DNA from: a virus
Virus record (IMG/VR): IMGVR_UViG_3300019752_000002
Span: 1 to 40,932 of that record
DNA length: 40,932 bases
Strand: one strand, 5' to 3'
Shown here: piece by piece, positions 4,533 through 38,750 of the stretch
Layout of the letters: each line of letters begins with the position of its first letter
How positions within the stretch are numbered: position 1 is the first letter of the stretch
Program-made: the position numbers and the translations under genes
The notes under the pieces: model-generated
What the model was told of the DNA's origin: nothing
The model's input: the letters and a program-made list of their open reading frames with translations, nothing else
Databases searched by the model: none

Positions 4533-4537
4533 TGCAA

Positions 4538-11896: not shown

Positions 11897-11902
11897 TTAA
11901 TT

Positions 11903-11920
11903 GTAGGGCTTAGGCCCTGC
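11903..11920 (+). terminator. Intercistronic hairpin, cassette B
   Basis: GTAGGGC-TTAG-GCCCTGC forms a 7-bp stem with a 4-nt loop and no T tract. It is followed by CAGCTTAGGAGGC, the binding site for the next gene. The block GGGCTTAGGCCCTGCCAGCT through GGAGGC is repeated exactly at 14197-14223. Confidence 0.6.
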
Positions 11921-11936
11921 CAGCTTAGGAGGCCAA

Positions 11937-13656: not shown

Positions 13657-13687
13657 TGTTATTTCCTCGTTTTATAGTTCATTAGTT

Positions 13688-13714
13688 ATTATAATAGCGG
13701 GCTTTGTTAGTTAA
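13688..13714 (-). promoter_or_regulatory. Possible late promoter for portal gene (variant)
   Basis: Minus strand has TTAACT (13714-13709) and TATAAT (13693-13688) only 15 bp apart, overlapping CTAACAAAGC, which resembles the TTAACAAAG core of the other late promoters. It is the weakest match of the set. Confidence 0.35.
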
Positions 13715-13748
13715 GTAATGCTTAGAAGTAAAACTAATGTGTTCAATT

Positions 13749-13784
13749 TGTGAATAAAGCCTTTAATTGTGAAAAGTTTGTGAA
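13749..13784 (+). promoter_or_regulatory. TGTGA repeat operator, site 3
   Basis: TGTGAA at 13749, 13768 and 13779. The last two are 11 bp apart, and the last begins 21 bp before the -35 box. The upstream copy is spaced 19 bp away. Confidence 0.6.
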
Positions 13785-13799
13785 GTGTTAGCATTGAGC

Positions 13800-13828
13800 T
13801 TGACTTTGTAAATTAAATATATTATAGT
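13800..13828 (+). promoter_or_regulatory. Sigma70-type promoter for cassette C
   Basis: TTGACT (13800-13805), 17 bp, TATAGT (13823-13828). Preceded by the same TGTTAGCATTGAGC stretch as in cassette B and followed by the same leader. Confidence 0.65.
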
Positions 13829-13876
13829 TAGTTATTGAAGCAAGGGAATGGTCCTAAGCTAGAGAAAGGAGACATC
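13829..13876 (+). promoter_or_regulatory. Shared 5' leader, copy in cassette C
   Basis: TAGTTATTGAAGCAAGGGAA followed by TGGTCCTAAGCTAG and AAAGGAGACATC. Nearly the same as the cassette B leader over about 35 nt, showing duplication of the whole promoter-leader unit. Confidence 0.5.
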
Positions 13877-14182
13877 ATGAGTAACTTAACTGATAACCAA
13901 TTCAACCTACTTATCAACTTTCTAGTAGCAAAATATAATATAAAAGATTTATCAGCTCAATTAGGTCTAGTTGAAGCTGTAGAAATTGCTTTAAACTTTG
14001 GGAAAGAAATGATTCAAAATCTAAGCAATGATAAGATAAACATGATTGCAGTTTTAACACTTAAAGAAACAGAAGAAAAAGTTGATAGTAAAAAATTTAT
14101 TGACAGTATCAAAGAAACTTTAACAGCAATCAGGGATAACTATTCTAACTTTTTAGAATCTGTTGTTTTAGCTAAATCTTAA
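13877..14182 (+). CDS. Cassette C: unknown helical protein, 101 aa
   Basis: I chose ATG 13877 because AAAGGAGACATC lies directly before it; an upstream in-frame ATG at 13835 sits inside the shared leader and has no binding site. The protein (MSNLTDNQFNLLINFLVAKY) is almost wholly helical and acidic, with a possible four-helix arrangement. No known domain. It is followed by a perfect hairpin and by a ribosome-binding site with no gene, a sign that a second gene was lost. Confidence 0.75.
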   Translation: MSNLTDNQFNLLINFLVAKYNIKDLSAQLGLVEAVEIALNFGKEMIQNLSNDKINMIAVLTLKETEEKVDSKKFIDSIKETLTAIRDNYSNFLESVVLAKS

Positions 14183-14192
14183 ATTAATTAAT

Positions 14193-14210
14193 GCAGGGCT
14201 TAGGCCCTGC
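14193..14210 (+). terminator. Hairpin after cassette C with orphan ribosome-binding site
   Basis: GCAGGGC-TTAG-GCCCTGC is a perfect 7-bp stem with a TTAG loop. It is followed by CAGCTTAGGAGGC, identical to cassette B, but here only the tail end of the terminase gene follows and no open frame starts (ATG CAT AGC TAA). Confidence 0.6.
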
Positions 14211-14227
14211 CAGCTTAGGAGGCTCTG

Positions 14228-17008: not shown

Positions 17009-17707
17009 TTGACGAGAATACATTTTAATAAAAATCAACAAGAGATATCTAAATTCCGTATAGGCGAGGTTCATGGAGAACTTACAATTATTGGTTATGT
17101 GCCTATGTTAGCTAGGACACATTCTAAACGTAATGTTTATGCTATGTGTAGTTGTGGATACATCACTACTTATCGAGCAGGTATGATGCCTAATAAATGT
17201 AAAAATCACAATCTAATTTCTTCAGTAGGTCAAAAATATGGGGAACTCCTAATATTGGAAGCTTACTATAAGAGTCCCTCAATAAAGCTAAGAAGAAGGG
17301 TTTGTGTCTTAGCTAAGTGCTCTTGTGGTACTATAGGTGAGTTTTACTTAGATAAATTAAAACAAGGAAATACCAAATCATGCGGATGTCACTCATTTAA
17401 AGATGGGGATTATATACGCCCAGAGATAGCTTTCTTAAATGAGCTAGAGCCTTTACTACTTACCAGGGGACTAACAATAGAAAGACAGTATTTTATTAAT
17501 GGTTATAGAATTGATGCTTACTGTCCAGAGCTAAACCTTGCTATAGAATATGACGAAGCTCACCATCGAACAACTAAAGGAAAAGAGTACGATATTAAAA
17601 GACAAGCTGACATAGAGGATATACTACATTGTACCTTTATTAGAGTATCGGATAACAAAACACACCAAGAGAATATAAACATTATTTTTGACTTTTTATC
17701 TAAATAG
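17009..17707 (+). CDS. Homing-endonuclease-like protein: zinc-binding repeats plus Vsr/DUF559-type nuclease, 232 aa
   Basis: Start is TTG 17009, preceded by AAAGGAGG. Two tandem N-terminal units follow the pattern G-E-L-x-I ... C-S-C-G ... C (Cys 47, 49, 64 and Cys 104, 106, 125, 127); the second ends in the typical SCGC. These are small DNA-binding zinc elements seen in phage mobile endonucleases. The C-terminal part has D169, then AIEYDEAHH (E180, D182, H185-186) and a KRQADIEDI stretch, matching the PD-(D/E)XK/Vsr fold of EDxHD-type free-standing homing endonucleases. It lies alone next to non-coding DNA, as selfish intron-less endonuclease genes often do. Confidence 0.65.
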   Translation: MTRIHFNKNQQEISKFRIGEVHGELTIIGYVPMLARTHSKRNVYAMCSCGYITTYRAGMMPNKCKNHNLISSVGQKYGELLILEAYYKSPSIKLRRRVCVLAKCSCGTIGEFYLDKLKQGNTKSCGCHSFKDGDYIRPEIAFLNELEPLLLTRGLTIERQYFINGYRIDAYCPELNLAIEYDEAHHRTTKGKEYDIKRQADIEDILHCTFIRVSDNKTHQENINIIFDFLSK

Positions 17708-17754: not shown

Positions 17755-17836
17755 TGTTGGGTAGCTCAGTTGGTTAGAGTGCTTGCCAGCCCATAGAGGG
17801 AGCAAGAAGCCCTAGGTTCAAATCCTAGCCCAACAA
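17755..17836 (+). tRNA. tRNA-like gene 1 with 15-nt anticodon loop
   Basis: Acceptor stem TGTTGGG/CCCAACA (7 perfect pairs), D arm GCTC-AGTTGGTTA-GAGT with the GG of the D loop, anticodon stem CTTGC/GCAAG, 5-nt variable loop, T arm CTAGG-TTCAAAT-CCTAG. All arms fit except that the anticodon loop (17787-17801) has 15 nt instead of 7, with CCC and GGG inside it that could pair. CCA is not encoded. No anticodon can be assigned with the normal rules, so this may be a non-decoding tRNA mimic or a tRNA with a small insertion. Confidence 0.55.
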
Positions 17837-17901
17837 CCTAGTAAAATGTGTGGCCTAGTTACTCTTTAGCTGTGGTGGCTTTAGTTATAACTAGGCTCTT
17901 T

Positions 17902-18121: not shown

Positions 18122-18194
18122 GTGACTTTAGCTTAAAGGTAGAGCGGGCCTGGAAAGAATGGTCTGTACTCTGGTTCAATTCCAGAAGGTCACA
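18122..18194 (+). tRNA. tRNA-like gene 4 with 10-nt anticodon loop
   Basis: Acceptor GTGACTT/AGGTCAC, D arm GCTT-AAAGGTA-GAGC, T arm TCTGG-TTCAATT-CCAGA are all good. The anticodon arm pairs as GGGCC/GGTCT around a 10-nt loop (18151-18160) and no 7-nt loop with U33 can be drawn. Overall length (73 nt) is normal. No encoded CCA. Confidence 0.5.
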
Positions 18195-20587: not shown

Positions 20588-21052
20588 ATGAGCAATTTTA
20601 AGTGGATAGCAAGGGATAAAGACGGGGATTTATGGAAGTTTACACACAAGCCTATTAAAGGCGAAGGCGGGCAATTATTTATAAAAGACCCCAAGGTTGC
20701 AGACTATTTTGGGAACCTTGAAGAATTAAACAAAGAACTGTACCCAGAGGTGACTTTCGAAAACAGCCCTCAGCCCTACCCAGTAGTAGCTAAGGAAGAA
20801 GAAAAGCTAATCTGGGTAAATCCAGAGCCAGCAAAGCCAAAGAAGACAAGAAAGCTTATAGCAGGTGATATAGTTTATCACAAAGCCACACCTAATCGTA
20901 AAATGGTAGTCTTAGGAATTAAAAAAGCTATCAAAGGTAAATACTACAAAGCTGCTAATTTAGAATACTACGACATTATGCTAAGAAATTATGTGCAAAT
21001 TCAAACTAGTTACATAGCTTTAGCTTTATGGGAGGACAAAGACAATGAGTAG
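20588..21052 (+). CDS. Unknown two-part early protein, 154 aa
   Basis: TAGGAGGAACT precedes the ATG. The N-terminal 60 residues (WIARDKDGDLWKFTHKPIKG ... ELYPEVTFENSPQ) match a small phage module seen again at the C-terminus of the Nmad1-like protein (22793-23476). The C-terminal part has GDIVYHKATPNRKMVVLGI, a beta-barrel-like pattern found in small proteins of the DUF2158 kind (tentative). Overlaps the nuclease gene by 8 nt. Confidence 0.6.
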   Translation: MSNFKWIARDKDGDLWKFTHKPIKGEGGQLFIKDPKVADYFGNLEELNKELYPEVTFENSPQPYPVVAKEEEKLIWVNPEPAKPKKTRKLIAGDIVYHKATPNRKMVVLGIKKAIKGKYYKAANLEYYDIMLRNYVQIQTSYIALALWEDKDNE

Positions 21053-22010
21053 AGAAAAAGTGTATACAACTAGCTCCATTAAGGCTATGCTTAGCTGTGC
21101 TGGCTTTAAAAACAACCCTAGAGGCTCTCTTGCAATGACACGAGGAAATATGTTGCATAGTATGTTTGAGCTAGGCGTAGAAAACTATGATAAAAAAGGC
21201 TCTGAATATAGGGGAGAGTATAGGCCTTATAGCTTTTTAGATAAGATAGACTTAGAAGAGCTTGAAGACATGGCTACACAGTATATGCGCGACCACCCAG
21301 AATATTTTACTAAAGACTGGGAACGTGAGCAAGAGATTAATTGTACTATGCCTTGTGGCTACAAAATAAGCGGAATTGTAGACGCTATGAGCATAAAAAG
21401 CACTTCTGCTATCTTAGTAGATTATAAAAGCGGAGTTAGCAGAGCTAATCCTAGCAGTATTTTAGATATGCTACAAGCTATAATGTATGCTTATATAATC
21501 TTTAAAACAAAGCCCTCTATAACAGATGTCCGCTTTACTTTTCTATATATAGAAGGCGTAGACGACTACATTACAAGGGATTTTAACATTAATGATCTAA
21601 ACAAGATGGAGCAGCTAATAGAAAAGCTTATCTTTGCTACACAGTACACAGGGCTTAGAGTTAATTCTAAGTGTAAATACTGTAACAATAAAGGAACTTG
21701 TGTACTTCTAGCTAAAGAAGCAGAAAGCCTAGACAGCTTTGGAATTAAGAAAGTAAAAGCTATTAAAGCAGCGTGCAAAGCTAAAGAAGAGGAGTACAAA
21801 GAAGAAAAGCTTAGCGAAGCAAAGAAAAGCGAAGACTACCAGGGCTTTACTAAAGTTATGCTCTACTCTGTAGACAAAGACAAATTAAGTGAAGCACAGT
21901 TACTGGATTTGCTAAAAGATGAAGTTAAACTAACAAAGAAGAAGGCTCTATACTTAGAAGAGCAAGGAATTAAAGTTAATAAAAAAGCTAGTTACAGAAT
22001 GAAGAACTAG
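21045..22010 (+). CDS. Cas4/RecB-like PD-(D/E)XK exonuclease with probable Fe-S cluster, 321 aa
   Basis: Nuclease core: H38 in NMLHSMFE, D113 in SGIVDAM, then VDYKSG (D126, K128) and a Q-x3-Y element (LQAIMYAY, Q144). Four cysteines fit a Cas4/AddB-type iron-sulfur site: C18 (LSCAG) near the N-terminus and C210, C213, C219 (CKYCNNKGTC). Such enzymes resect or trim DNA ends in phage recombination. The last 80 residues are Lys/Glu-rich and helical. The gene lies next to small early genes and upstream of the SF2 helicase, with which it may act. Confidence 0.75.
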   Translation: MSREKVYTTSSIKAMLSCAGFKNNPRGSLAMTRGNMLHSMFELGVENYDKKGSEYRGEYRPYSFLDKIDLEELEDMATQYMRDHPEYFTKDWEREQEINCTMPCGYKISGIVDAMSIKSTSAILVDYKSGVSRANPSSILDMLQAIMYAYIIFKTKPSITDVRFTFLYIEGVDDYITRDFNINDLNKMEQLIEKLIFATQYTGLRVNSKCKYCNNKGTCVLLAKEAESLDSFGIKKVKAIKAACKAKEEEYKEEKLSEAKKSEDYQGFTKVMLYSVDKDKLSEAQLLDLLKDEVKLTKKKALYLEEQGIKVNKKASYRMKN

Positions 22011-22023
22011 CAGAGGAGGCAAA

Positions 22024-22206
22024 GTGAAAGTAAGCTACAGCTTAAACAAGGAGGACTTGCTAGAAATACTCAGAATGCATTTTAAGGAAAAGAAGCAATT
22101 AATCATCGAAGATATAGAAATTGAACTAAAAACTAACTATTATAGAAACGAAGACCAAGGCAAAGAATTTGACTGTATTAACTTAACTATAAAGGAGACA
22201 AATTGA
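22024..22206 (+). CDS. Small unknown protein, 60 aa (GTG start)
   Basis: GTG 22024 follows AGAGGAGGCAAA. The product reads MKVSYSLNKEDLLEILRMHF and continues with alternating charged beta strands. Its stop overlaps the next TTG start by 4 nt. No family recognised. Confidence 0.6.
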   Translation: MKVSYSLNKEDLLEILRMHFKEKKQLIIEDIEIELKTNYYRNEDQGKEFDCINLTIKETN

Positions 22207-22409
22207 ATAGAAGAAAAAAGCAAGAATTAAGAGAACGTTTACAAAGAACAGAAGGCCGAAACAGCTTTGCTGAGTTACTAGGCTTAATGTTTATAGGACT
22301 TAAGTTAGCTGGCTTAATAACATGGTCATGGTGGCTTGTTTTACTACCTTTAATAGTAGGCTGGTTAGGTAGAAGTATTGCACAAACAATAGCAGAAGAG
22401 GAGGAATAA
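22203..22409 (+). CDS. Small membrane protein, 68 aa (TTG start)
   Basis: TTG 22203 after AAAGGAGACAAA. A basic amphipathic N-terminus (NRRKKQELRERLQRTEGRNS) is followed by two hydrophobic segments (about residues 23-38 and 40-56, rich in Trp/Leu) and an acidic tail (AEEEE). Holin-like in size and layout, but it lies in the early block. Start of a run of three coupled membrane mini-genes. Confidence 0.6.
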   Translation: MNRRKKQELRERLQRTEGRNSFAELLGLMFIGLKLAGLITWSWWLVLLPLIVGWLGRSIAQTIAEEEE

Positions 22410-22549
22410 TGTTTTTATTATTAAGCATGATTTTATTAGTAATTAAGTTGGCCACAGCAGCAACATTCAGCTGGGCTTGGATTTGGGGAACTTTCATTGT
22501 TTGGATAATAGCTTCTATTATTGTTGCAACGATGCAAGACGACTATTAA
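22409..22549 (+). CDS. Small membrane protein, 46 aa
   Basis: ATG overlaps the previous stop (TAATG) with GGAGGAATA before it. Two hydrophobic stretches (MFLLLSMILLVIKLATAA and FSWAWIWGTFIVWIIASIIV) and a short acidic tail (MQDDY). Probable two-pass inner-membrane protein. Confidence 0.6.
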   Translation: MFLLLSMILLVIKLATAATFSWAWIWGTFIVWIIASIIVATMQDDY

Positions 22550-22551
22550 GA

Positions 22552-22626
22552 ATGTACTACTTATCAATAATATATTTACTGGGCTACATTGCGTTAGCCC
22601 TTTATTATTTAAGAACGGAGGAATAA
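22552..22626 (+). CDS. Very small membrane peptide, 24 aa
   Basis: ATG two bases after the previous stop and TAA overlapping the next ATG (TAATG). One hydrophobic helix (YYLSIIYLLGYIALALYYL) followed by RTEE. There is no good binding site of its own, so it would depend on reinitiation. The same bases can fold as GGGCTA/TAGCCC, so the frame could be incidental. Confidence 0.4.
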   Translation: MYYLSIIYLLGYIALALYYLRTEE

Positions 22627-22793
22627 TGACTTTAAAGATATGTGGACTATGTAACGGTACAGGAGTACATAGGGATTATCAAAGTGGTTGGGATTTAACG
22701 TGCCCCTCTTGTAAAGGAACTGGAGGAATGTATACAGACCAAAAAAGCGGACATGAGGAAAATATAAAAGATGTGCTTAAGGAGGAGGAATAA
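22626..22793 (+). CDS. DnaJ-type zinc-finger mini-protein, 55 aa
   Basis: Start at ATG 22626 (CGGAGGAATA before it), not the in-frame upstream ATG inside the previous genes. Two motifs, CGLCNGTG (residues 6-13) and CPSCKGTG (about 25-32), are the two halves of one DnaJ-like zinc finger (CxxCxGxG). Such mini-proteins are common in phages, perhaps as chaperone or protein-binding adaptors. A second copy of the type is encoded at 25377. Confidence 0.65.
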   Translation: MTLKICGLCNGTGVHRDYQSGWDLTCPSCKGTGGMYTDQKSGHEENIKDVLKEEE

Positions 22794-23476
22794 TGAACTT
22801 TGCAGACAAAGCAAAACAGATAACAGATAACATTTACACAATATTAGTAGAGAAAAATAAAGCATATGGCAACAGTGCTTTAGAACCCGTTAGAGTATTT
22901 AGTAAAGCAAGCTCAGAAGAGCAAATCCTTGTCAGAATCGACGATAAATTAAGTCGCATAGCAAAAGGTACAGACTATGCAAACGAAGACACAATAGACG
23001 ATTTAATAGGCTACTTAATCTTACTTAAGATAAATAGGCAAGAAGCAGAGGAAAATAAGGACAAAATAAATGAAGACACTTTGCTAGGTAAGCTAGTTAG
23101 TTTAAGAAAAGAAGAAGAAACTAAGCAGTTAAACAAAGAAGCCTTAGCCAAAAATGAGCGACTACTTAAAAACATGGATGAAAAGGGAAACATAGATGAA
23201 AAGGGAAACATAGGATATCAAGAAGTAGAGGACAAAGAACCTTTTTACATAGTTAGAAATAGCAGTGGCAAACTTAGAAAGTTTAAAGAAAAACCTCATC
23301 AAGGCTTTCATTGGTGGTTTGGTAGCAATGATAAAAATGGCGAAAATATAGAATTTGAGAAGGACCCACAGAATGGCTATGATAGCGAAAGTGAAGCATA
23401 TGAGGATAAGGAAGGCCTCTTTCACCACATAACATGGGAAGATGGCGATATTTATTGCAGCAAAGAGGAGAAATAA
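22793..23476 (+). CDS. Nmad1 (DUF1599)-like protein fused to a small phage module, 227 aa
   Basis: Residues 10-85 (ILVEKNKAYGNSALEPVRVF ... RIDDKLSRI ... DTIDDLIGYLILL) match the nucleotide-modification-associated domain 1 pattern: K-N-x-x-Y-G-N-S, RxDDKLxR, D-x-x-GY. An 18-bp tandem repeat (23177-23212) then encodes DEKGNI twice. The C-terminal part (PFYIVRNSSGKLRKFKEKPH...W) resembles the start of the protein at 20588. Overlaps both neighbours (TAATG). The Nmad1 role in modified-nucleotide metabolism is known only by genomic association. Confidence 0.6.
   Translation: MNFADKAKQITDNIYTILVEKNKAYGNSALEPVRVFSKASSEEQILVRIDDKLSRIAKGTDYANEDTIDDLIGYLILLKINRQEAEENKDKINEDTLLGKLVSLRKEEETKQLNKEALAKNERLLKNMDEKGNIDEKGNIGYQEVEDKEPFYIVRNSSGKLRKFKEKPHQGFHWWFGSNDKNGENIEFEKDPQNGYDSESEAYEDKEGLFHHITWEDGDIYCSKEEK
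23177..23212 (+). repeat. 18-bp in-frame tandem duplication
   Basis: GATGAAAAGGGAAACATA occurs twice in a row inside the Nmad1-like gene, adding six residues at the domain linker. Likely replication slippage. Confidence 0.85.
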
Positions 23477-23802
23477 TGAAACACAGTATTAAAAAACAAA
23501 GAACAAAGAAGCAGAGAGAAAAAGAAGCAATGTCTTTAGACAGAGCATTTATGACCTTAGTTGCTGAGTGTATGATACAAGAAACGAGTGTAATAGAGCT
23601 AACAAGACCGATAGGGACAAAAGGCTATAATTATCACTACATTTTCCAACTTTACAAAATAACTGACAAAGATGGCAAGGAAATAGACCCTAGAGGGCTT
23701 CTAGCAGAAACTGAGGTAGAAGACGCTAAAATAATAGAGTTAGCTAAGCTTGAAGCAAAGAGCAAAGAGGAGGAGGCAAAGGAAGCACACGAGAAAAGAT
23801 AA
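23476..23802 (+). CDS. Unknown charged early protein, 108 aa
   Basis: ATG 23476 overlaps the previous stop and follows GAGGAGAAA. The N-terminus is strongly basic (KHSIKKQRTKKQREKEAMSL), the middle holds a beta pattern (YNYHYIFQLYKITDKDGKEI) and the C-terminus is a Lys/Glu helix. Unknown function; nucleic-acid binding is possible from charge alone. Confidence 0.6.
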   Translation: MKHSIKKQRTKKQREKEAMSLDRAFMTLVAECMIQETSVIELTRPIGTKGYNYHYIFQLYKITDKDGKEIDPRGLLAETEVEDAKIIELAKLEAKSKEEEAKEAHEKR

Positions 23803-23806
23803 ACTG

Positions 23807-23824
23807 AGCCCTTCGGGGCTTTAC
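23807..23824 (+). terminator. Intercistronic hairpin with TTCG tetraloop
   Basis: AGCCC-TTCG-GGGCT followed by TTTA, just after the stop at 23802 and before the TTAGGAGATAAT site of the next gene. Same architecture as at 19657 and 31549. Confidence 0.5.
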
Positions 23825-23836
23825 TTAGGAGATAAT

Positions 23837-23995
23837 ATGGAAGTTAAAAGCTTATGTATAGAAGATAGCAAAGGTAACATTTATAGGCTCCTTTTAACTA
23901 AAGAGCAATTAAGAGAAGCTATAAGCACATTAGACAAACAAGAGCATTTATACATAGCTAAAAAGCCCACAGTAGCCCATTTTGAACGAGATTAG
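23837..23995 (+). CDS. Small protein, 52 aa
   Basis: Start chosen at ATG 23837, which follows TAGGAGATAAT; the frame is open upstream through the hairpin but has no site there. Product MEVKSLCIEDSKGNIYRLLL, a beta hairpin then a helix. Unknown. It is followed at 24004 by the SF2 helicase. Confidence 0.55.
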   Translation: MEVKSLCIEDSKGNIYRLLLTKEQLREAISTLDKQEHLYIAKKPTVAHFERD

Positions 23996-24003
23996 GAGGA
24001 AAG

Positions 24004-25392
24004 TTGAGACATAAAAGAAAAAAGCTAATCTTACATGACTGGCAAAGAAAAGCAATGAAAGACTTTTTCGACAAGGGAGGCTTAGCTTTAAATGTAGACA
24101 CTGGACTTGGAAAGTCTATTTTAGCTGTAGCTTTGTCTATAGAAGCTTTAGAAAAGCAAGACACAGTTATCATAGTTACACCGCCTCACCTAATTAGCGA
24201 CTTAAAAGCTAAGTTTGAGGAGTTCTTCCCCGCTATATTACCCAGTATAAGCATAGCTAATAAGAGCAACAAGGTAATAAAGCCACATAGCATTAACATA
24301 CTAAGCTATAATAAGTTTGTCTTATATAGCAAAGAAATAGAGAAAAGCTTAAAAAAGACATTTAGTTACACAGTTATCTATGACGAAAGCCACTTAGCTA
24401 AATCTGTAAGCAGTAAAACATATAAGTTCGCAATAAAGATAACAAATAAATATAATACCAAAAACTTATTAACTACTGCAACTATGATGTCTAATAATAA
24501 CTTAGATCTATTCAGCCCTGCTTACTTAGCTAGTAAAGAGCTAAGAGCAAAGTTTAATAGCTACTACACGTTTAAAGACCTTTATATCGAAACTGAGATA
24601 ATGTACATAGCTTCTAGGCAAATACACAAGCCACTTAAAATTAGCGATGCAGGAATGAATAACTTTATAAATCCAAACATAACAAAACTACAAAATAAAT
24701 TACTACTAAGTGCTAGCGAAACAATTATAAGCTGTCCCAGCTCTAAACAAGTAACAGCTAAGCTAAAACAGTTAAAAGACTATGAAATTACACAGATTGA
24801 TTTTAGCAAGCTTACAGCTATAGAAACAAACCGACTAACTAATATTATAGCAAACCCAGCCGGTAAGTTCTTACAGCTAGCAAATAACTTTATCTATGAT
24901 GAAATAACGAATGAAGCTAAGTATTTTAAATACAAAGAAAAGCTAGATTTACTTAACAGCATAGTAAACACAGAAAGCACAGCAAACAAAAAAGGAATAT
25001 TGTTTTACTTCTTCAAAGCAGAGCTAGATAAACTACAAAGCTTTTATGCTAAGAATAAAAGAATATACTGGCATAACAACAAAAAAGACATTGTAGGACA
25101 GATAACAGAGTTTGAGCAAGGAAAATATGACTTGTTTGTAATGAACATTGCTGCAGCAAGCACAGGCATTAGATTTAAAGAAACTGACTACATAGTACAT
25201 TTTAACATTGGCTGGAATACACTTGCAATTAAGCAAGCAGATGGAAGGCTAAATTACAATGGAAGAACAAAGCCTTACAAGATTTTCAGATTTGAAACAG
25301 ACAACGAAGAGCTAAAATATATTGGTGAACGTGTAAGAGAAAAGCAAAATAAAGCCCAGCAATGGAAGGAGGAGGAATGTCTAGTAAAATAA
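24004..25392 (+). CDS. SF2 helicase/translocase (SNF2/DEAD-like), 462 aa
   Basis: TTG start at 24004 after TTAGGAGGAAAG. Motifs in order: HDWQRKA (Q-like element, 11-17), Walker A DTGLGKS (32-38), motif Ia VTPPHL, Walker B DESH (127-130), motif III TTATM (157-161), motif IV region KGILFYFFKAEL, motif V ASTGIRFKETD, motif VI QADGRLNYNGR. The length is minimal for both RecA lobes with no extra domain. Phage enzymes of this class support replication, recombination or transcription switching. It sits between nucleases (21045 and 25625), consistent with a recombination/replication role. Confidence 0.8.
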   Translation: MRHKRKKLILHDWQRKAMKDFFDKGGLALNVDTGLGKSILAVALSIEALEKQDTVIIVTPPHLISDLKAKFEEFFPAILPSISIANKSNKVIKPHSINILSYNKFVLYSKEIEKSLKKTFSYTVIYDESHLAKSVSSKTYKFAIKITNKYNTKNLLTTATMMSNNNLDLFSPAYLASKELRAKFNSYYTFKDLYIETEIMYIASRQIHKPLKISDAGMNNFINPNITKLQNKLLLSASETIISCPSSKQVTAKLKQLKDYEITQIDFSKLTAIETNRLTNIIANPAGKFLQLANNFIYDEITNEAKYFKYKEKLDLLNSIVNTESTANKKGILFYFFKAELDKLQSFYAKNKRIYWHNNKKDIVGQITEFEQGKYDLFVMNIAAASTGIRFKETDYIVHFNIGWNTLAIKQADGRLNYNGRTKPYKIFRFETDNEELKYIGERVREKQNKAQQWKEEECLVK

Positions 25393-25625
25393 TACACAGA
25401 ATAGTGGTAGAAACTAAGGAAGTAGTAGTACACTACTATCATTGCACAGATAAGAAAGTTTTTAGTGTTAAGCACGAAGCAGAAATACATCAAGGCAAGC
25501 TGGACGGAACAATAAAAGAATGCAGTTTCTGTAATGGACTTGGAGTAGATGCAGAAGGTTGGCAATGTAGAAAGTGCAAAGGGGCCGGTTATTTAAAGCA
25601 AATATGGGTAGGAGGGAATGAATAA
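25377..25625 (+). CDS. DnaJ-type zinc-finger protein, 82 aa
   Basis: ATG 25377 lies directly after AAGGAGGAGGA, so it is preferred to the in-frame ATG at 25362, which is part of that site. Residues about 49-73 have CSFCNGLG and CRKCKGAG, the paired CxxCxGxG of a DnaJ-like zinc finger. The first half is beta-rich. Overlaps helicase by 16 nt and the nuclease gene by one base. Second such protein in the operon. Confidence 0.6.
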   Translation: MSSKIIHRIVVETKEVVVHYYHCTDKKVFSVKHEAEIHQGKLDGTIKECSFCNGLGVDAEGWQCRKCKGAGYLKQIWVGGNE

Positions 25626-26074
25626 TGCTAGAAACAAAAGTAGTAAAGATAGTTAAAAATACTTGCTTAGAGCTTAATTGCTTACCTTACTTTGTCCAGC
25701 CAGTTGCGGGGAGTGGAGGAGTACCAGACAGCATAATTAAGCTTCCTTTAGGGGGAACTATACATTTAGAGCTTAAAGGGGATTCTAAACTAAGAAAAGC
25801 ACAAAGAATCTTTATAGAAAAGAGCGATAATGCGTGGGAAGCAAGATATAATAAAAAAGCAAAGCGAGTAGAAGTACACGTAGATCAAGATAACTTAGAT
25901 GAAGTAGTAGAACTAGGCTTATTTCTAGCTATGTGTATACAAGACGAAATAGACCAAAAAGGCTATAGGGATTATTACTTAAAAACTGAGCTAGAAAAGA
26001 AGGAAAGACGCATTTATTTAGACAAGCTAGGCATAGAAGAAGAAACCCTAGCAGACTATGAGGAGCTATTATGA
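25625..26074 (+). CDS. VRR-NUC domain nuclease, 149 aa
   Basis: Compact PD-(D/E)XK nuclease of the VRR-NUC family: GSGGVPDSII (P34-D35), then TIHLELKGDS (E49, K51) and Q60 in RKAQRIF. Stand-alone phage versions act as structure-specific or Holliday-junction-type nucleases. The C-terminal half is helical and charged. ATG overlaps the previous stop (TAATG). Probably works with the helicase and polymerase in resolving replication intermediates (inference). Confidence 0.7.
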   Translation: MLETKVVKIVKNTCLELNCLPYFVQPVAGSGGVPDSIIKLPLGGTIHLELKGDSKLRKAQRIFIEKSDNAWEARYNKKAKRVEVHVDQDNLDEVVELGLFLAMCIQDEIDQKGYRDYYLKTELEKKERRIYLDKLGIEEETLADYEELL

Positions 26075-26382
26075 AAGAGCAAATAGTATACAAAGTATGG
26101 GATAAAAAGGAAAATAAGTTTTGTGGTTCTTTTGAAAATAAAGCCAAGATTTACGCTAACGACCCTACATCAAATTTAATAATAATAGCGGCACCTATAC
26201 ATAAACGTGTACAAGTAGAAGACGGAAGCTATGATTTAATAAAAACAAGCATAGAAGAGCGTAGACAATATGTAAAAGACAATATAGAAGTTATTAAATG
26301 CAGAGTAGTTGAAGAAGCTGTACTATTACAAGTTATAGAAAACATAAAGGATATAAAGGAGCTAGCATGTTTACCTTCCTAG
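26071..26382 (+). CDS. Unknown early protein, 103 aa
   Basis: Overlaps the nuclease stop by 4 nt (ATGA) and uses the GAGGAG of its last codons. The product (MKEQIVYKVWDKKENKFCGS) has a short beta-rich N-terminus (x-VWDKK-x-x-KFCGSF) followed by helices. No family recognised. Confidence 0.55.
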   Translation: MKEQIVYKVWDKKENKFCGSFENKAKIYANDPTSNLIIIAAPIHKRVQVEDGSYDLIKTSIEERRQYVKDNIEVIKCRVVEEAVLLQVIENIKDIKELACLPS

Positions 26383-26471
26383 TAGCAATGTTACTAAGTG
26401 AGTATGGGCCTAATAATTTATTTAACTATGCAAAGGAGCTATTATGCTATCTGAAGCACTTAAACAGCTAA
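26367..26471 (+). CDS. Very small protein, 34 aa
   Basis: ATG preceded by AAAGGAGCTAGC. The product (MFTFLVAMLLSEYGPNNLFN) starts with a short hydrophobic helix. It overlaps genes on both sides in other frames, consistent with a coupled mini-gene. Modest support. Confidence 0.4.
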   Translation: MFTFLVAMLLSEYGPNNLFNYAKELLCYLKHLNS

Positions 26472-26599
26472 GCTTAGACTTAGAACAAAGTTACTATATA
26501 AACTATGAAAATATGCGAATAACAATCACAGAGCTAAAATTAAGCAAAAACAATACCTTATCTATACGTCAATTTCTGGACAAAAATAAATCAAAATAA
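26444..26599 (+). CDS. Small protein, 51 aa
   Basis: ATG 26444 follows AAAGGAGCTATT. Product MLSEALKQLSLDLEQSYYIN, helical with a basic end. It is the last gene before the replisome promoter. Unknown. Confidence 0.5.
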   Translation: MLSEALKQLSLDLEQSYYINYENMRITITELKLSKNNTLSIRQFLDKNKSK

Positions 26600-26602
26600 A
26601 AC

Positions 26603-26631
26603 TTGCAAAACAAAAACAAATAAGCTATACT
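26603..26631 (+). promoter_or_regulatory. Promoter for the replisome gene
   Basis: TTGCAA (26603-26608), 17 bp, TATACT (26626-26631), followed 35 nt later by the AGAGAGGAGG site and ATG 26667. No TGTGA array here. Confidence 0.55.
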
Positions 26632-26666
26632 TTATCAAGCTTTAACTTATCCAGAGAGGAGGTAAA

Positions 26667-29600
26667 ATGTTAAGACTGGACAAAAACGAACACTTAATAG
26701 TAAGATTAAACAAAAATAACCTAGACGGCTCGCTGAACTATGAAAAGCCCGCTTATATGGTTATTAAAGACTTAGAAAGCTTAAACGATATCAAGCCTTT
26801 ACCTAATCATTCTTATTATATTGAAAACTATACAACTACAGACAAAGTAACAGAGTATAGATCAAGCTTACCTACTAAGTCAACAAAGCGTTTTATTATG
26901 TTTGAGCTAGAACAACATCAAGGAATGAAATTAGCAGGCGAAATTAGCACAGAGCTAGTAAATAAGCTTGTAAAAACACATGACGAATTAATGCCAGAAG
27001 GCCTAAAAAGCAAAGATGCTTTACTATCTTATAAAACAGGTGGGGGATATAACTTAATTTACTTTACTAGCATAGAATTTATAAGAAAGATAACTAGAGC
27101 AGGACGCAGAGTCAGAAAAGAAATTAACAACATTATTAAAGAAAACGCTTTTCACGAAGAGCATAACAAGGAGGGCGTATATGATGTCAGTTATCACTTA
27201 TCTGTTAAGGGTCTTAAAAGGCTTAGACTTCCTTTAGCTGGGACAGTAAACCCAAAATATGGTAATAAGTTTAGCGGAGTAGTTATGCAAGAAACAGCAA
27301 AGGAAGTGAATCTAAATAAAATGGAGTTACAACAAACGCAGCAAGAAAAAAGCATGGATGATCTAATTATGCAAGCATACGAAGAAACAAGAGACGAAAT
27401 AAATATTGACAAAGAAGAAAAGATATTAGCTGGAACTTTAGACTATTTAACAAGCTTGGGCTATGATGTTGGCTCTGATAACACTTGTATACACCCTCTA
27501 CACTTAGATTTAAAGCCTTCCATGTATATTGGTTATGATGGCAAAGCTGTTTGTAAAAGTGGACACTCAGACCATCACCGATTTAGTACTGCTGACTTAG
27601 TAGAAGCAAAGGGAGGAGATGTTACTAAGATAGCTCAAACTGATTATGTCAGTAATGATTTACAGCTAAACGGTACTTTCATAGAAAATGATACAATTAG
27701 AACAGTGTTAAGACATATAGAGCGCAATAGAGTAATGGTAATTGGTACTAATATATCGGACAAAGCAACTGTGTATAATTATGATAATGGAAGATGGTCA
27801 ATCTCTGCTATAAGCTCTATTTTATGGAGAGCTGCAAATAATATGGCTGAAATATGTAGAAATACACTAGGCAAAATAACAAATATGGGCTTTGATCCAG
27901 TAGAGCTTAAGAAAAGTGAGCTATATAAGCTTATTAGCAAAGCTACTATAGTAAGAGCTGACAATAATCACAAAACTTTAATGCAGACTTTAATTTTAGT
28001 AATAGAAACCGAGCGAGAAATAAGAAACAAAGCTCTATTTTCTTCGCTACCTTCCGAAAAGGAACTAAGCATACCTTTTCTAAATGGTGTTTACAATGCT
28101 AAAACAGATAAGTTAGAACAAGAAACACCAAAACACCGCATATTAAGCAGAGTAGGAGTAAAATATAAGAAGTTTAGCGACTATTCCGAAATAGAAAATA
28201 TGCTGAATGACTGGACAGGGGGACAAGGTACAGAGCTAGCAATAGGATTAGCTAGAGCATTGACAAGAGCAGAATCAGGGAAGATGTTATTTCTAATTGG
28301 AAAAGGAGCAAATGGTAAAAGTACACTAACTACAGAGATACTAGGAGCAGTTTTAAACAATAATAAAGATTCGGACGACAGGGCATCTAATATTAGCTTA
28401 ATTAACTTAGCTGATACAAGCGGAAATAATTTTATGTTACAAAGTTTAGCAGGTAAAAGCTGCAATATCTCTTCTGAAATTGAACGTAGTCATGCTTTAC
28501 TGGACACATTAAAAGAGAAGACTGGCGAAGGTGATGTAATTCAGGTTAATATTAAGCATAAACAGCCTTTCGAGATGAAATTTAATGCTACTCTGCTACT
28601 TGCTGGTAATACTATGCCTTATGTGTCTGAAACTAATAGAGCTTTAGTGCGTAGAATACAAATTTTTGAGTTTAACAACGATTATTTAAAGTTAAATACA
28701 ACACAGCAACTAAGAGAGTTTAGATCTAGGATAAGAAGCAATGACTTTTTAGAGCTTTTCTTTAGCTACTTAGCTAATATACTAAATAAATATAATCAGA
28801 ACTTAATAGCTGAGCAAGCAGAAAGCAAAGTAGTTGAACTAATAAAGAAATACAATGACACAATAAGAACTTTGATAGAATATGAATACGTAGTTGAAGC
28901 AGAAGCAAAGGCAAGCTTAGTTGACTTTCAAGCAAAGCTTGACATTTTGCACGGAGATATAAAGCAGGGTTCACAGTGGAGTAGACGCGTAGTAGTAGAG
29001 AAGCTAAAAGAAAAAGGCTTTGTAACAGATATACAAAATAATATTGTGGGACTAAGACCGAAAACAAGTGATGATGATAATACACCACCTAAACCTAAGA
29101 AGGAGGAAACTATGCAACGCAAAGAAAAGGGACATAAAAACAAAACTAGCTTATTTGCTAAGAAACAAGCTGAGAAAGCAAAAGAGCAGAACACTACAGA
29201 CATATTTACACCATCTAATCTTAGACATACTATGCAATTAATAACACCTTCTACAGTAGCTCCTCAGTCTGTTTTTGACAAGGTTAATAGTCTGCTAGGC
29301 GATAAACTTAAAGGTAGAATAATAACAGCTCTTGACATTGAAACTACGGGCCTTATCCCTTCTGAGCATAAGGTTGCAACTATACAAATGCTTAACAGTG
29401 CAGGCGAAGAATTTATAGAAGTTAAGAAGCATAGCGAAATGGAACTAAGCTTATTACTAGATAAGAGATTAAATAATCAAGCTGTGCTAGGACATAATAT
29501 AACTTTTGATATGGCTTTCTTAAAAGAGCATTATGATGTAGATGTAGTTAGAGATAATATTTATGTGCTTGATACTATGATAGCTGCAAAGATAGATAGA

Positions 29601-31538
29601 CAAAGTACAAGCGTAGCGGACGAACTAGAGCAAAACTTGCACATGACTATTAAAGATTACAAAACTACAGCAAATGGCATAATTAAAGATTACAGCTTAA
29701 AAGGCTTAATGAAGTTTTACTTAAATATAGAGATGGATAAAACAGAACAAAAAAGCGACTGGTCACAAAGTCTTACTGCAGAACAAAAAGAGTATGCAAT
29801 GGAGGACGTAAGACATTTACATAAGCTATACGAAGTAATTACAAAGAGCATACAAAGTAAAGGCATGGACTTAGTACTAAAGCTAGAAGAGAATACAACA
29901 AGAGCTATCATAGATGCTAACAGCCATACACTACACATTAACATGGAAAAGGGTAATAAACTAGCTGATAAGTTCGCTAAGATGTCTAATATTGAAGTAA
30001 CAAAGTACAATGAAATAATGAAAGATGTAGTAGCTCAGCTTTGGGAAAATAAAGAAGATATGTATAATGCATACTTGGACCACAAACACGCTGAGAAGAT
30101 GAAGACATTTAAAGCTAAGACAGATAAAGAATTAATGCTAAAAGCGGAGCTTAATTTTAAGAAAATAGAAAGTAAAATAGCAGAAATGCAAGAAAGTACT
30201 TTAAACGATAAAGAAGCTAAGAAGCTAGTAAGCTTAGAAAAAAGCATAGCTAATAAAGATATCTTTCTAGCTAAAGAATTAGCTAAGTTACAAAAAGCAG
30301 AAGCAAAGAAAACAGAGCGTAAAAAGCTGACAGATGCTAAGCTGGCTAAGGACTTAGCAGCATTGACAGATAAGGACGGCATATTTATTTCTAAGAGTAA
30401 AGGAATATTTAAGTATATTATGTCTACACTATTAGATATCGAAATAGATAGCACAGACAAGAAAGCAATAACTAAGCTTTTAGATAAGCATATAATTTTT
30501 AAGCAAATTGAAGCTATGACCGCAATGTTAAAAGAAAAGATGGATATAGAAAACGCTCTAAGATACAGAACTGGCGAAGGTAGAGTAATAACTAGATTGA
30601 ATCAAATTGGAGCTGTTACAGGGCGTATGTCCAGCTCAGCTTTGAAAGATAATTCAGGCAAGAAAGCTGGAATTAATATGCAGCAAATTAACAGAGATGC
30701 AGACTTTAGAGACATCTTTGAAGCTACAGAAGGAAAGAAGCTAATTCTAGCCGATTATAGTGGTATGGAATTAAGAATAGTAGCTAAAGTGGCTAAGGAA
30801 ACTAAAATGATAGAAGCTTTTTCTAAGAATGAAGACTTACATAGTAAAACAGCTGCTTTATTGCATGATATTGACTATACAGAGTTTATGGAAGTACTAA
30901 GTAATAGTGAACACAAGCTATACAAAGAATACAAAGCATATAGAAATGCAGCAAAGTCTGTAGGATTCTTGACTGTATATGGTGGTGGAGCTAAGGCATT
31001 AAGTGAAAATAGCGGAATAAGTACAGAAGAAGCAAAAGAGCTAATTAATAACTATAAAACGGTCGCTTTTCCTAAGCTAGCTGAGTATATAGAACAACAA
31101 AACAACACTAAGACAGTATTTACAGCTTTAGGGCGTAGAATAGACACAGAAGATGTAATAACAAGTGCAAAATACTTTGGTATGGCAAACTCTGAGTTTA
31201 GTTGGAAACAACATAATTATGAACAAAGAATAGCAGGGCTTTACAGTGCAGCTGGGTATACAACTCCAGTTAACTTCCCTATCCAGGGAACGGGAGCGGA
31301 CATAGTAAAGCTTGCAATGTCTTTATTAATAGATCACGAAGATTACATAGCTGACGATGTACACATAGCACACGTTGTACATGATGAAATTATACTAGAA
31401 GTTAGCGAAGCAGTAGCTAAGAAATGGACAACTATATTACAAGATGTAATGGAGCTAGCAGGCAACACTATAATGGATAATAAAGTTTATATGGAAGCAG
31501 AAGCAGCAATTGGTAACAGCTGGAATGAAGCAAAGTAA
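26667..31538 (+). CDS. Replisome fusion: primase-like/SF3 helicase joined to 3'-5' exonuclease and family A DNA polymerase, 1623 aa
   Basis: Parts in order. (1) Residues 70-205 resemble an archaeo-eukaryotic primase core with MFELEQ in the acid-pair place, KTGGGYN and RLRLPLAGTVNPKYG. (2) About 272-300 is a zinc-finger-like CHC2 pattern (TCIHPLHLDLKPS, VCKSGH). (3) D5-type helicase with Walker A GKGANGKST (about 545) and motif C LLLAGNTMPYVSETNRALVR (about 645). (4) DnaQ-like exonuclease ALDIETTG (about 890), HNITFDMAF, YAMEDVRHL. (5) Family A polymerase: motif A ADYSGMELR (about 1365), motif B with SVGFLTVYGGG, motif C VHDEI (about 1573). Phages usually carry helicase and polymerase as separate genes. 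A lysine-rich coiled coil (about 1130-1245) interrupts the polymerase. Confidence 0.85.
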   Translation: MLRLDKNEHLIVRLNKNNLDGSLNYEKPAYMVIKDLESLNDIKPLPNHSYYIENYTTTDKVTEYRSSLPTKSTKRFIMFELEQHQGMKLAGEISTELVNKLVKTHDELMPEGLKSKDALLSYKTGGGYNLIYFTSIEFIRKITRAGRRVRKEINNIIKENAFHEEHNKEGVYDVSYHLSVKGLKRLRLPLAGTVNPKYGNKFSGVVMQETAKEVNLNKMELQQTQQEKSMDDLIMQAYEETRDEINIDKEEKILAGTLDYLTSLGYDVGSDNTCIHPLHLDLKPSMYIGYDGKAVCKSGHSDHHRFSTADLVEAKGGDVTKIAQTDYVSNDLQLNGTFIENDTIRTVLRHIERNRVMVIGTNISDKATVYNYDNGRWSISAISSILWRAANNMAEICRNTLGKITNMGFDPVELKKSELYKLISKATIVRADNNHKTLMQTLILVIETEREIRNKALFSSLPSEKELSIPFLNGVYNAKTDKLEQETPKHRILSRVGVKYKKFSDYSEIENMLNDWTGGQGTELAIGLARALTRAESGKMLFLIGKGANGKSTLTTEILGAVLNNNKDSDDRASNISLINLADTSGNNFMLQSLAGKSCNISSEIERSHALLDTLKEKTGEGDVIQVNIKHKQPFEMKFNATLLLAGNTMPYVSETNRALVRRIQIFEFNNDYLKLNTTQQLREFRSRIRSNDFLELFFSYLANILNKYNQNLIAEQAESKVVELIKKYNDTIRTLIEYEYVVEAEAKASLVDFQAKLDILHGDIKQGSQWSRRVVVEKLKEKGFVTDIQNNIVGLRPKTSDDDNTPPKPKKEETMQRKEKGHKNKTSLFAKKQAEKAKEQNTTDIFTPSNLRHTMQLITPSTVAPQSVFDKVNSLLGDKLKGRIITALDIETTGLIPSEHKVATIQMLNSAGEEFIEVKKHSEMELSLLLDKRLNNQAVLGHNITFDMAFLKEHYDVDVVRDNIYVLDTMIAAKIDRQSTSVADELEQNLHMTIKDYKTTANGIIKDYSLKGLMKFYLNIEMDKTEQKSDWSQSLTAEQKEYAMEDVRHLHKLYEVITKSIQSKGMDLVLKLEENTTRAIIDANSHTLHINMEKGNKLADKFAKMSNIEVTKYNEIMKDVVAQLWENKEDMYNAYLDHKHAEKMKTFKAKTDKELMLKAELNFKKIESKIAEMQESTLNDKEAKKLVSLEKSIANKDIFLAKELAKLQKAEAKKTERKKLTDAKLAKDLAALTDKDGIFISKSKGIFKYIMSTLLDIEIDSTDKKAITKLLDKHIIFKQIEAMTAMLKEKMDIENALRYRTGEGRVITRLNQIGAVTGRMSSSALKDNSGKKAGINMQQINRDADFRDIFEATEGKKLILADYSGMELRIVAKVAKETKMIEAFSKNEDLHSKTAALLHDIDYTEFMEVLSNSEHKLYKEYKAYRNAAKSVGFLTVYGGGAKALSENSGISTEEAKELINNYKTVAFPKLAEYIEQQNNTKTVFTALGRRIDTEDVITSAKYFGMANSEFSWKQHNYEQRIAGLYSAAGYTTPVNFPIQGTGADIVKLAMSLLIDHEDYIADDVHIAHVVHDEIILEVSEAVAKKWTTILQDVMELAGNTIMDNKVYMEAEAAIGNSWNEAK
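29096..31538 (+). CDS. Internal in-frame start: stand-alone exonuclease-polymerase, 808 aa (nested)
   Basis: Inside the fusion gene, AAGAAGGAGGAAACT (29097-29111) stands directly before ATG 29112, codon 816, in frame. This is as good a ribosome-binding site as those of most genes here. It falls exactly in the disordered linker between the helicase half and the exonuclease half (PKPKKEET-MQRKEKGHKN). Initiation there would give an 808-aa polymerase with its whole exonuclease, alongside the full fusion. The site itself encodes K-K-E-E, so chance cannot be excluded. Confidence 0.5.
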
Positions 31539-32263: not shown

Positions 32264-32317
32264 ATGCATAGGAGCATAGATGATAACAACACAAGAAGAG
32301 TTAGTAACGCTAATTAA
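32264..32317 (+). CDS. Possible 17-aa leader peptide overlapping the sigma-factor start
   Basis: GGGAGGTCATAA precedes ATG 32264, a better site than the one of the sigma gene itself. The frame (MHRSIDDNNTRRVSNAN) runs past the sigma start in another frame and stops 38 nt into it. It could tune sigma synthesis by competition or reinitiation. Very short, so tentative. Confidence 0.35.
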   Translation: MHRSIDDNNTRRVSNAN

Positions 32318-32939
32318 GAAAACAGTAAACAAAAGAGCTAAGTTTGCTTTAAATAAGCGTACGCAAAAAGAAGAGTTAGTAAACGAGGCCTATATTTACG
32401 TTATGGAAAACAGGCACAGATTAGCAAAGTTTAAACATGACCCAGCTCACGAAAGGGCATACATTGTAAGTATGGTCAGAACAGCTATAACAAAGTTTTA
32501 CATAGCTTTAGACGTAGTAAAATTGCCCCCTATTAAGCATAGACGAAATAGCTTACATATCATAGACGCAGAGACACCCAAATTTGAAACTACAGCAGAC
32601 GACAAAGAAATTGAAAGCGAATATAGCAGAGCTGTTAAAAACATAGAAGCAGACTATCAAGGAAAGGAAAAAAGCGAAGAAGTAGAGCTTTGGAAAGACT
32701 TTTTTGACGATGCTTTTACAGAGCTTAGCAATGTAGAAACTTATATTATAGAAAATAGATATTACTTAGAGGACGTAGCAAAGCGTAAAACACTAAGAGA
32801 GCTAGCAGAAGAGCTACACGTAACAAGAGAAAGAGTATTTCAGCTAGAAGAGTCAGCATTGAATAAGCTACTTAACTACTATGTACAGAATAGCAACCCT
32901 AACGAAGCCCAAAGCTTTGAGCCTAAATTAATCTCCTAA
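32280..32939 (+). CDS. Phage sigma factor (sigma70 family), 219 aa
   Basis: Residues 171-199 (TLRELAEELHVTRERVFQLE then ESALNKL) are a clear sigma region 4.2 helix-turn-helix that recognises -35 boxes. Residues about 25-80 (EELVNEAYIYVMENRHRLAK ... AYIVSMVRTAI) have the spacing of region 2, which melts the -10 box. Regions 1.1 and a full region 3 are missing, as in small alternative sigmas. It should redirect host RNA polymerase; the late-strand TTAACA-N17-TAATA promoters are the natural targets (inference). The ATG follows AGGAGCATAG. Confidence 0.75.
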   Translation: MITTQEELVTLIKKTVNKRAKFALNKRTQKEELVNEAYIYVMENRHRLAKFKHDPAHERAYIVSMVRTAITKFYIALDVVKLPPIKHRRNSLHIIDAETPKFETTADDKEIESEYSRAVKNIEADYQGKEKSEEVELWKDFFDDAFTELSNVETYIIENRYYLEDVAKRKTLRELAEELHVTRERVFQLEESALNKLLNYYVQNSNPNEAQSFEPKLIS

Positions 32940-36809: not shown

Positions 36810-38750
36810 TTAATCTGTCCATAAATTATCATCATTCCAAATCTGTAAGTCATTCCAAATATTCATCTTAATACATTTTAAAGCTTTTGCGGTTTCCTCT
36901 GCTGTTAAATCTCTATCCCAGAAACAGAGCTGTCTTTTCTTATTAACTTCTGTATTAGATATAGCAGAAAGACCGTACTGAGCTAAAAAATCAGCATAGC
37001 CTAGAGGGTCTGTAATATCTCCATCTACAACCGCTTTTAAAGTATCAGGTAGATTAATTTTTGTTTCTGCTCCATTATGCCCTACTACAGCGATGTTGGT
37101 TATCTCATTATCTAGTGCATCAATCGTTGCTGTTTTTGCAGGCGTAAATTGAGGCTGATAAGTAACTGTATCTATATTTAAAGTAGATAATCTAATGTTT
37201 TCTAGTGTTCCAAAATCTTCACTTGTAAGAGTGTCTACCCAACTTTGAGCAATTAGCAATCGGCCATCTCCGTTAGGGTGTACTCCATCACCAACATCAT
37301 ACTCGGCTTTTAGGCTTCCTTCTGATGTGCTAAGCTCATATAAATGCTTATTGTTTCTATAATCTAAATCTGTAATTGTATTACTTATGCCCATAATTGC
37401 ATTATTTAAAGCTAGCATTTTATTATAGTATTCTAAGCCTAAAGTTTCACCAAAAAGACTAATCCATGCATCTTTTATTAGTAAAACACAAGAACCCACA
37501 ATTTTAGCCCCTGTTTTAATATCTGCTCTAATTGTATCTATCAAAATTTGATAATTAGCAAGTGTTACACTTATATCTGCAAGATTATCGTTCAACCCAA
37601 TTTCAACAACTACATAATCCAAATTACTTTTTATAGTAGAGCTAAGAGCATTCCATTTACTTGTTTGACCCAGAATAGTATCTGAACTTGTAGCAATAGA
37701 ATCACAAGAAAAATCAAAACTTTGATTAAGATAATCAGCTATGCTGTTAAAACCATTTCTAGCTGCAATTGTGGAATCCCCTAATGCCATACCTTGATAA
37801 ATATTCCTTTTCATTCTTAGTAAAGACTGACCTGCATCTAAGTCCTGAACAGAGTAAACACTTGTTGTGTAAGTGTTGTCAGGAGCAGATGGATTAGTCC
37901 CAAAATCAGCCTCTATCATTACATATTCAGAGCCAAAAGCACCTCCTTTAATTAAAAATTGAAATTCACCGTCTAACAGTCTGATTATTTTAACAGAATA
38001 AGGAACATTATTTTCTATGTAATTATTAACTGTATACATCATAATTGATTTATTAGCCCCTCTGTTAAAAGTTAAAGAATTTGTAGCTAAACTGATAAAA
38101 TTATATCTATCTGAGTCAAGAGGCCATGATTCTGTGTCTTCAGAGATAAATGAAGTACTCCAAACCGTACCAGGTTGTTTAATAAAATCGAATACCCAAA
38201 CGCCATACGCATTATTACTTTCTATATTAGATTTTCCACTTGTTTGACAAAATAAAGCTTCACTGAATCCGTTGTTAAAATTAGCGTGATATCCATCTGT
38301 TGTACCTCTTACGGTTGCTGTAGATAGTGTCCCGTGTTCTCCAGTTCCTTTATTATAGCAATGTAGATTTTCACCTTCTGCTAGCGGAAATATATGGCCA
38401 GAACTTAGAACTAAATCCCAGCAAGTGCCAATTGTGAAACTTATAAATCCCGCTGAAATTGTAGGCGTAGAAGTTCCCCCACTTGATACTACTGTTTCTG
38501 TTCCAACTAAATCAGTAACATATAATAATTCAGTTCCAGCAAGAATATCTAAGCAATTAGAATTTACTAGCTGTGCATCATTTCCATTTCCACTTTCATC
38601 ATAGACCACCCCCGCCGAGCTAGGTAATATGTTACCAAGTAACACGCACTCTAAGTCCGTTTGAGCAGGGAGGCAAGCTGGGAACTTTACACCGTAATAC
38701 ATTTCTCTTCGCCTTCTTGGCCATGTTATTTTAAATCTTTCGCACGCCAT
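36810..38750 (-). CDS. Large tail fibre/receptor-binding protein with embedded SGNH (GDSL) hydrolase, 646 aa
   Basis: N-terminal 300 residues are beta-rich with a LamG-like opening (DESGNGNDAQLVNS) and Gly/Ser/Thr-rich stretches. Residues about 318-500 have the SGNH blocks: MALGDSTI (catalytic Ser), VEIGLNDN (Gly-x-Asn-Asp), and DGVHPNGDG (catalytic Asp-x-x-His). Such domains in phage fibres remove acetyl groups from surface polysaccharide. The C-terminus ends in the Trp-rich IWNDLQIWNDDNLWTD found at tail-fibre ends. The enzyme suggests a capsule- or LPS-bearing host. Start lies after AAGGGGCTAAC. Confidence 0.7.
   Translation of the reverse strand: MACERFKITWPRRRREMYYGVKFPACLPAQTDLECVLLGNILPSSAGVVYDESGNGNDAQLVNSNCLDILAGTELLYVTDLVGTETVVSSGGTSTPTISAGFISFTIGTCWDLVLSSGHIFPLAEGENLHCYNKGTGEHGTLSTATVRGTTDGYHANFNNGFSEALFCQTSGKSNIESNNAYGVWVFDFIKQPGTVWSTSFISEDTESWPLDSDRYNFISLATNSLTFNRGANKSIMMYTVNNYIENNVPYSVKIIRLLDGEFQFLIKGGAFGSEYVMIEADFGTNPSAPDNTYTTSVYSVQDLDAGQSLLRMKRNIYQGMALGDSTIAARNGFNSIADYLNQSFDFSCDSIATSSDTILGQTSKWNALSSTIKSNLDYVVVEIGLNDNLADISVTLANYQILIDTIRADIKTGAKIVGSCVLLIKDAWISLFGETLGLEYYNKMLALNNAIMGISNTITDLDYRNNKHLYELSTSEGSLKAEYDVGDGVHPNGDGRLLIAQSWVDTLTSEDFGTLENIRLSTLNIDTVTYQPQFTPAKTATIDALDNEITNIAVVGHNGAETKINLPDTLKAVVDGDITDPLGYADFLAQYGLSAISNTEVNKKRQLCFWDRDLTAEETAKALKCIKMNIWNDLQIWNDDNLWTD

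Follow-up and report, generated by a model that had tools for sequence, protein, structure and literature searches.

The closest published relative of the gene described here is the 1,606-aa helicase-PolA polyprotein of the Pyrovirus TOSV OS3173, '3173 Pol' (PMC7689252, PMC10423840). The genus includes TOSV and TGBSV, with helicase fused to PolA, and AJCSV and ACSV, in which the two are separate (PMC7689252). Fused replicases raise a problem of stoichiometry: with both enzymes on one chain, how does a virus adjust the number of helicases relative to that of polymerases? Phage T7 gene 4 specifies a co-linear in-frame pair, 4A and 4B, of 63 and 56 kDa, the second start of which has its own ribosome-binding site (PMC12593628), and in phage endolysins an in-frame internal start between domains yields two isoforms (PMC12203907). 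Here we describe a viral helicase-polymerase fusion that carries a strong candidate internal start in the linker between its two halves.

Results

The window, that is, the whole stretch of DNA analysed, is a 40,932-base virus record, in which the ORF at 26667-31538 (Table 1) is, by its domain matches, a D5/DUF5906 SF3-type primase-helicase joined to a 3′-5′ exonuclease and family A DNA polymerase. The Pfam assignments agree with the PHROGs matches, which are to DNA primase and DNA polymerase families, and a helicase, a 3′-5′ exonuclease and a family A polymerase reside in a single ORF, as in a Pyrovirus-like polyprotein. All of the exonuclease and polymerase motifs are present (DIETTG, DYSGMELR and VVHDEIILE), and the D-x-E-T, DYSxxELR and VHDE signatures, with the Pfam DNA_pol_A and DNA_pol_A_exo1 matches, identify a proofreading family A polymerase. 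The polymerase half is predicted to fold as such an enzyme, with apicoplast apPol and Aquifex PolA as the best structure matches; by sequence, Aquifex PolA is the best solved match, followed by Prex apPol, and both of these are named kin of 3173 Pol. Ahead of D5_N, a Cys/His pattern, CIHPLHLDLKPSMYIGYDGKAVCKSGH, at 27486-27572 (aa ~274-302) resembles a zinc ribbon. The stretch at aa ~184-198 (KRLRLPLAGTVNPKY) is like an archaeo-eukaryotic primase motif; a Pfam primase domain was not found there.

Table 1. Features of the fused replicase gene and of its candidate internal start
Feature	Position	Strand	Basis or remark
Fused replicase ORF	26667..31538	+	1623 aa
Primary start with strong SD, AGAGGAGGTAAA-ATG	26645..26669	+	duplex -12.6
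N-terminal region	aa 1-368		without family match
D5_N	aa 369-516		Pfam
DUF5906 / SF3-type helicase	aa 543-656		Pfam
Predicted disordered inter-domain linker, aa 786-862 (~77 residues)	29022..29252	+	AlphaFold pLDDT <50
TGATGATGATAA stop cluster, -1 frame, four consecutive stops	29069..29080	+	matters only if indel artefact or frameshift
Internal Shine-Dalgarno AAGGAGG	29100..29106	+	sequence
Internal in-frame ATG, Met816 (codon 816)	29112..29114	+	sequence
Proposed free exo-polymerase, 808 aa	29112..31538	+	every exonuclease and polymerase motif kept
Met856 codon, aligned with starts of stand-alone relatives	29232..29234	+	SD absent (+0.5)
DNA_pol_A_exo1, 3′-5′ exonuclease	aa 888-1062		Pfam
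DNA_pol_A, family A DNA polymerase	aa 1262-1621		Pfam

The resemblance to Pyrovirus extends to a viral fusion of ~1,600 aa with an N-terminal helicase/primase-like part followed by a 3′-5′ exonuclease and a family A polymerase, to genome size (37-42 kb versus 40.9 kb here) and to a DEAD-type helicase and a PD-(D/E)XK nuclease that are also among the replication genes. In the window, the block at 21045-31538 holds a PD-(D/E)XK nuclease, a DEAD/ResIII helicase and the helicase-exonuclease-PolA polyprotein, an arrangement described for the Pyrovirus of Aquificae. The helicases differ: that of Pyrovirus is annotated as DUF927, whereas D5_N and DUF5906 were found here and Pfam DUF927 was not. The virus may be a remote Pyrovirus relative with a D5/DUF5906 helicase in place of DUF927.

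The virus is very divergent. Of the large minus-strand genes at 1575-15922 that were tested, the majority lacked a PHROG match at E 0.001, including one for a 564-aa protein beside the small terminase. The 646-aa product of a minus-strand gene at 36810-38750 has a GDSL lipase/acylhydrolase domain and may be an enzyme of the tail or one that degrades a receptor, and the product of 32280-32939 contains Sigma70 region 4 (PHROG RNA polymerase sigma factor) and is a possible phage sigma factor. A tRNA-Gly (gcc) and a second Rfam tRNA match without an ARAGORN call, at 17755-17838 and 18122-18194, adjoin an HNH/homing endonuclease-like gene (17009-17707).

No close relative of the fused ORF turned up when IMG/VR and GTDB genomes were searched directly and by motif. 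The only genome match (L173) covers a 95-residue exonuclease stretch in a partial ORF that begins at the exonuclease and lacks a fused helicase, and PolA was not found within the fetched flank of 80 loci with helicase relatives. Three distant fused IMG/VR ORFs of 1469-1498 aa (L053, L059 and L084), on GC-rich contigs, join a Prim-Pol/ATPase-like part to exonuclease-PolA. Split layouts are also represented: a separate primase/ATPase gene lies upstream of polA in several loci (e.g. L021, L042, L045 and L055), and helicase and polymerase are adjacent separate genes in bajarodcaudo virus 5. In L045, the Prim-Pol/ATPase gene stops 2 nt before the ATG of a stand-alone polA, whose SD-like sequence, GGGAGGAG, lies inside the last codons of the upstream gene, so that this layout is identical to that of the fused ORF save for the stop codon.

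The initial annotation of this DNA had claimed a strong internal ribosome-binding site and an in-frame ATG at codon 816 that would give an 808-aa polymerase, and this description of the site is borne out. The AAGGAGG lies 5 nt from the ATG, and its duplex with the anti-SD of the 16S tail is worth -12.2 kcal/mol, a strength equalled or exceeded at only 2 of the 46 predicted gene starts (median -8.8). Among the 201 internal in-frame ATGs, it is the only one with an SD at this level; as in T7 gene 4, then, a longer ORF encloses an ATG that is in frame and is preceded, at a functional distance, by an SD of its own. Local structure around this ATG is weak, like that of real gene starts: the mean unpaired probability is 0.60 (gene starts, 0.53; internal ATGs, 0.48), and the MFE is -4.0 (gene starts, -4.15; internal ATGs, -6.5). 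The further statement that most starts in the genome have the GGAGGAA spacing was incorrect: GGAGGAA is found at 7 of 44 starts, GGAG or GAGG at 37 and GGAGG at 20, while the gap from GGAG to the start is usually 5 nt (27/35) and is 6 nt at 29112. The possibility that the short form has a promoter of its own was considered and rejected: promoter-like sites occurred no more often than in shuffled sequence, and near 29000 none was conspicuous.

A K/E-rich linker might happen to spell AAGGAGG ahead of a methionine, in which case only the fusion would be functional and any free polymerase negligible. We regard this as unlikely, though it is to be taken seriously, and the chance controls bear on it from both sides. 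When the peptide KKEETM was held fixed and its codons were redrawn by usage, AAGGAGG arose in 13% of trials (P = 0.13), and of the 35 K-E-G contexts throughout the window, 3 are spelled AAGGAGG, where 4.3 would be expected. The word is therefore not enriched, and the codon choice at 29100-29106 is not unusual in itself. The expected genome-wide number of in-frame AAGGAGG-N3-8-ATG sites, 0.14, is close to the contribution of the 29112 site itself. Also in favor of chance, the same gene contains a second, equally good SD-ATG (27167-27186; AAGGAGG-N6-ATG at 27181), out of frame and opening only 18 codons, which would be a useful negative control. Finally, no comparable SD-ATG was found in the linkers of the three distant fusions, where the best value was -8.9, at a GTG; these are remote kin with GC-rich sequence. 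Against a chance origin, linkers shuffled from the same residues with the codon usage of the window seldom yielded a site this strong (P = 0.0007) or even one near typical gene strength (P = 0.018). In addition, SD-like words are depleted about 2-fold in the coding sequence of the window (AGGAG, 23 observed versus 44 expected; AGGAGG, 4 versus 10.8), which suggests that stray starts within genes are selected against. At 29112, moreover, SD strength, spacing, an ATG, the reading frame and a place in the linker all come together. The four controls place the rarity of the site in peptide order, frame and location and not in codon choice, and together they argue well, though not conclusively, for a genuine signal.

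The location of the site was assessed with an AlphaFold prediction of aa 740-1623, made with 31 relatives (mean pLDDT 73.6). Because pLDDT is below 50 throughout aa 786-862, Met816 falls in the middle of the predicted linker, the exonuclease being predicted confidently from about aa 867. The prediction for the helicase half is of low confidence (pLDDT 36) and was used only for the coil that follows about aa 796. The most hydrophilic point of the whole protein, at about aa 805-819, is likewise inside the linker. Placement of the site at the exact helicase-polymerase junction, as first annotated, is overstated: the site is mid-linker, and the conserved exonuclease fold begins some 45 residues beyond Met816. 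The 808-aa product would, according to this model, keep the whole exonuclease-polymerase fold. Since unfused polymerases start near Met856, a product begun at Met816 would be longer by a basic tail of ~40 residues. In that tail, KTSLFAK (~29172-29190, aa ~836-842, approximate) loosely resembles a sliding-clamp-binding motif, a speculative likeness. In alignment A3, the Met at 816 looks 'nearly invariant', but this was discarded as an end-gap effect, because the block that follows the stand-alone starts aligns with Met856. The alignment of stand-alone polymerases to Met856 and not to Met816 counts against the proposed internal start.

The linker also bears on two readings in which the site belongs to a polA gene that is, or until recently was, separate. 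In one, the SD and ATG are remnants of a former polA whose helicase neighbor recently lost its stop codon, leaving a weak, unselected signal. The position of the polA signal in the tail of the upstream gene of L045 fits such a history, as does the coexistence of fused and split states in Pyrovirus (PMC7689252). However, the segment at 29067-29111 scores as coding in frame 0 (0.46, versus 0.36 +/- 0.17 for the gene) and is thus unlike recent intergenic DNA, and the stand-alone polA starts align to Met856; on balance we find this reading improbable. In the other, the fusion is itself an assembly error or a rare indel, and a separate polA starts at 29112. The -1 frame contains the four consecutive stops of the TGATGATGATAA cluster, which ends 31 nt before the ATG, and a single extra A in the run at 29061-29064 would end the helicase there; split helicase/polA layouts are, moreover, common. 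Yet frame 0 of the linker has the character of coding sequence, with strongly negative coding scores for the stop-bearing frame, and fused polyproteins have been published and are found in three IMG/VR contigs, which makes an artefactual fusion very improbable.

Discussion

We propose that one virus gene gives rise to two replication proteins, a fused and a free polymerase, by internal initiation at 29112, and we assign this reading a probability of about 0.58. It is favored because the SD surpasses nearly all gene starts and is unique among the in-frame internal ATGs, because so strong a site stands in a disordered linker of a genome that depletes SD words, and because the split layout of L045 matches this one save for a stop codon. 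Ribosomes starting at 26667 would produce the 1623-aa primase-helicase/exonuclease/polymerase fusion, while others would bind the AAGGAGG, start at the internal ATG and produce an additional 808-aa exonuclease-polymerase with a flexible basic tail. At the fork, the fusion would move together with the helicase, and the free form may raise the ratio of polymerase to helicase and serve synthesis that is not tied to the helicase ring. From the sequence we infer that initiation at 29112 would take place in vivo, and that the site is perhaps the retained ribosome-binding site of a once separate polA gene. The fused-plus-free arrangement put forward in the initial annotation is partly supported: the sequence favors a second initiation site that would give a complete exonuclease-polymerase, and in a linker of such composition chance would seldom place so strong a site there, but the three distant fused relatives have nothing comparable.

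Should the proposed internal start prove true, it would provide a simple answer to how helicase and polymerase numbers are set. It would also suggest how split and fused helicase-PolA genes may interconvert while independent expression of the polymerase is kept, and annotation of the gene as a single polyprotein would hide a second product.

A free polymerase might alternatively arise by cleavage of the polyprotein, the internal start being irrelevant. In Plasmodium, proteolysis separates the primase, helicase and polymerase of PREX (PMC9631997), and Prex apPol is, with Aquifex PolA, the closest solved kin of the polymerase; a strong SD-ATG at 29112 would then be a coincidence, and we consider this explanation hardly credible.

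To our knowledge, in a literature search that covered open papers, an internal start at a helicase-polymerase junction has not been reported. Internal initiation is a known phage device, and what is new here is probably its use at this junction. The accessible portions of the Pyrovirus papers contain no mention of internal initiation, ribosomes or Shine-Dalgarno sequences. GP55 of lactococcal phage 1706 likewise combines helicase, AEP primase, exonuclease and polymerase in a single protein, but its polymerase belongs to family B, and the accessible part of its description does not mention internal initiation (PMC12205980). The endolysins that start internally differ in being lysis enzymes whose isoforms heterodimerise (PMC12203907). 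T7 gene 4, to which the site had been likened at the outset, is similar in that one phage replication gene gives two in-frame products by an internal start. The parallel goes no further, since the T7 short form is a helicase that lacks part of the primase, whereas here the primase-helicase half would be dropped and the polymerase kept, and the two genes are not homologous as a whole. The apicoplast PREX/apPol system places primase, helicase and polymerase on one polypeptide, with a polymerase among the closest solved kin of the present one, but it is encoded by a eukaryotic nuclear gene and obtains its free polymerase by proteolysis (PMC9631997). We tentatively suggest, at somewhat less than even odds, that internal initiation at the helicase-polymerase junction sets how much of the polymerase is tethered and how much is free in this virus and is thus a genetic counterpart of PREX proteolysis.
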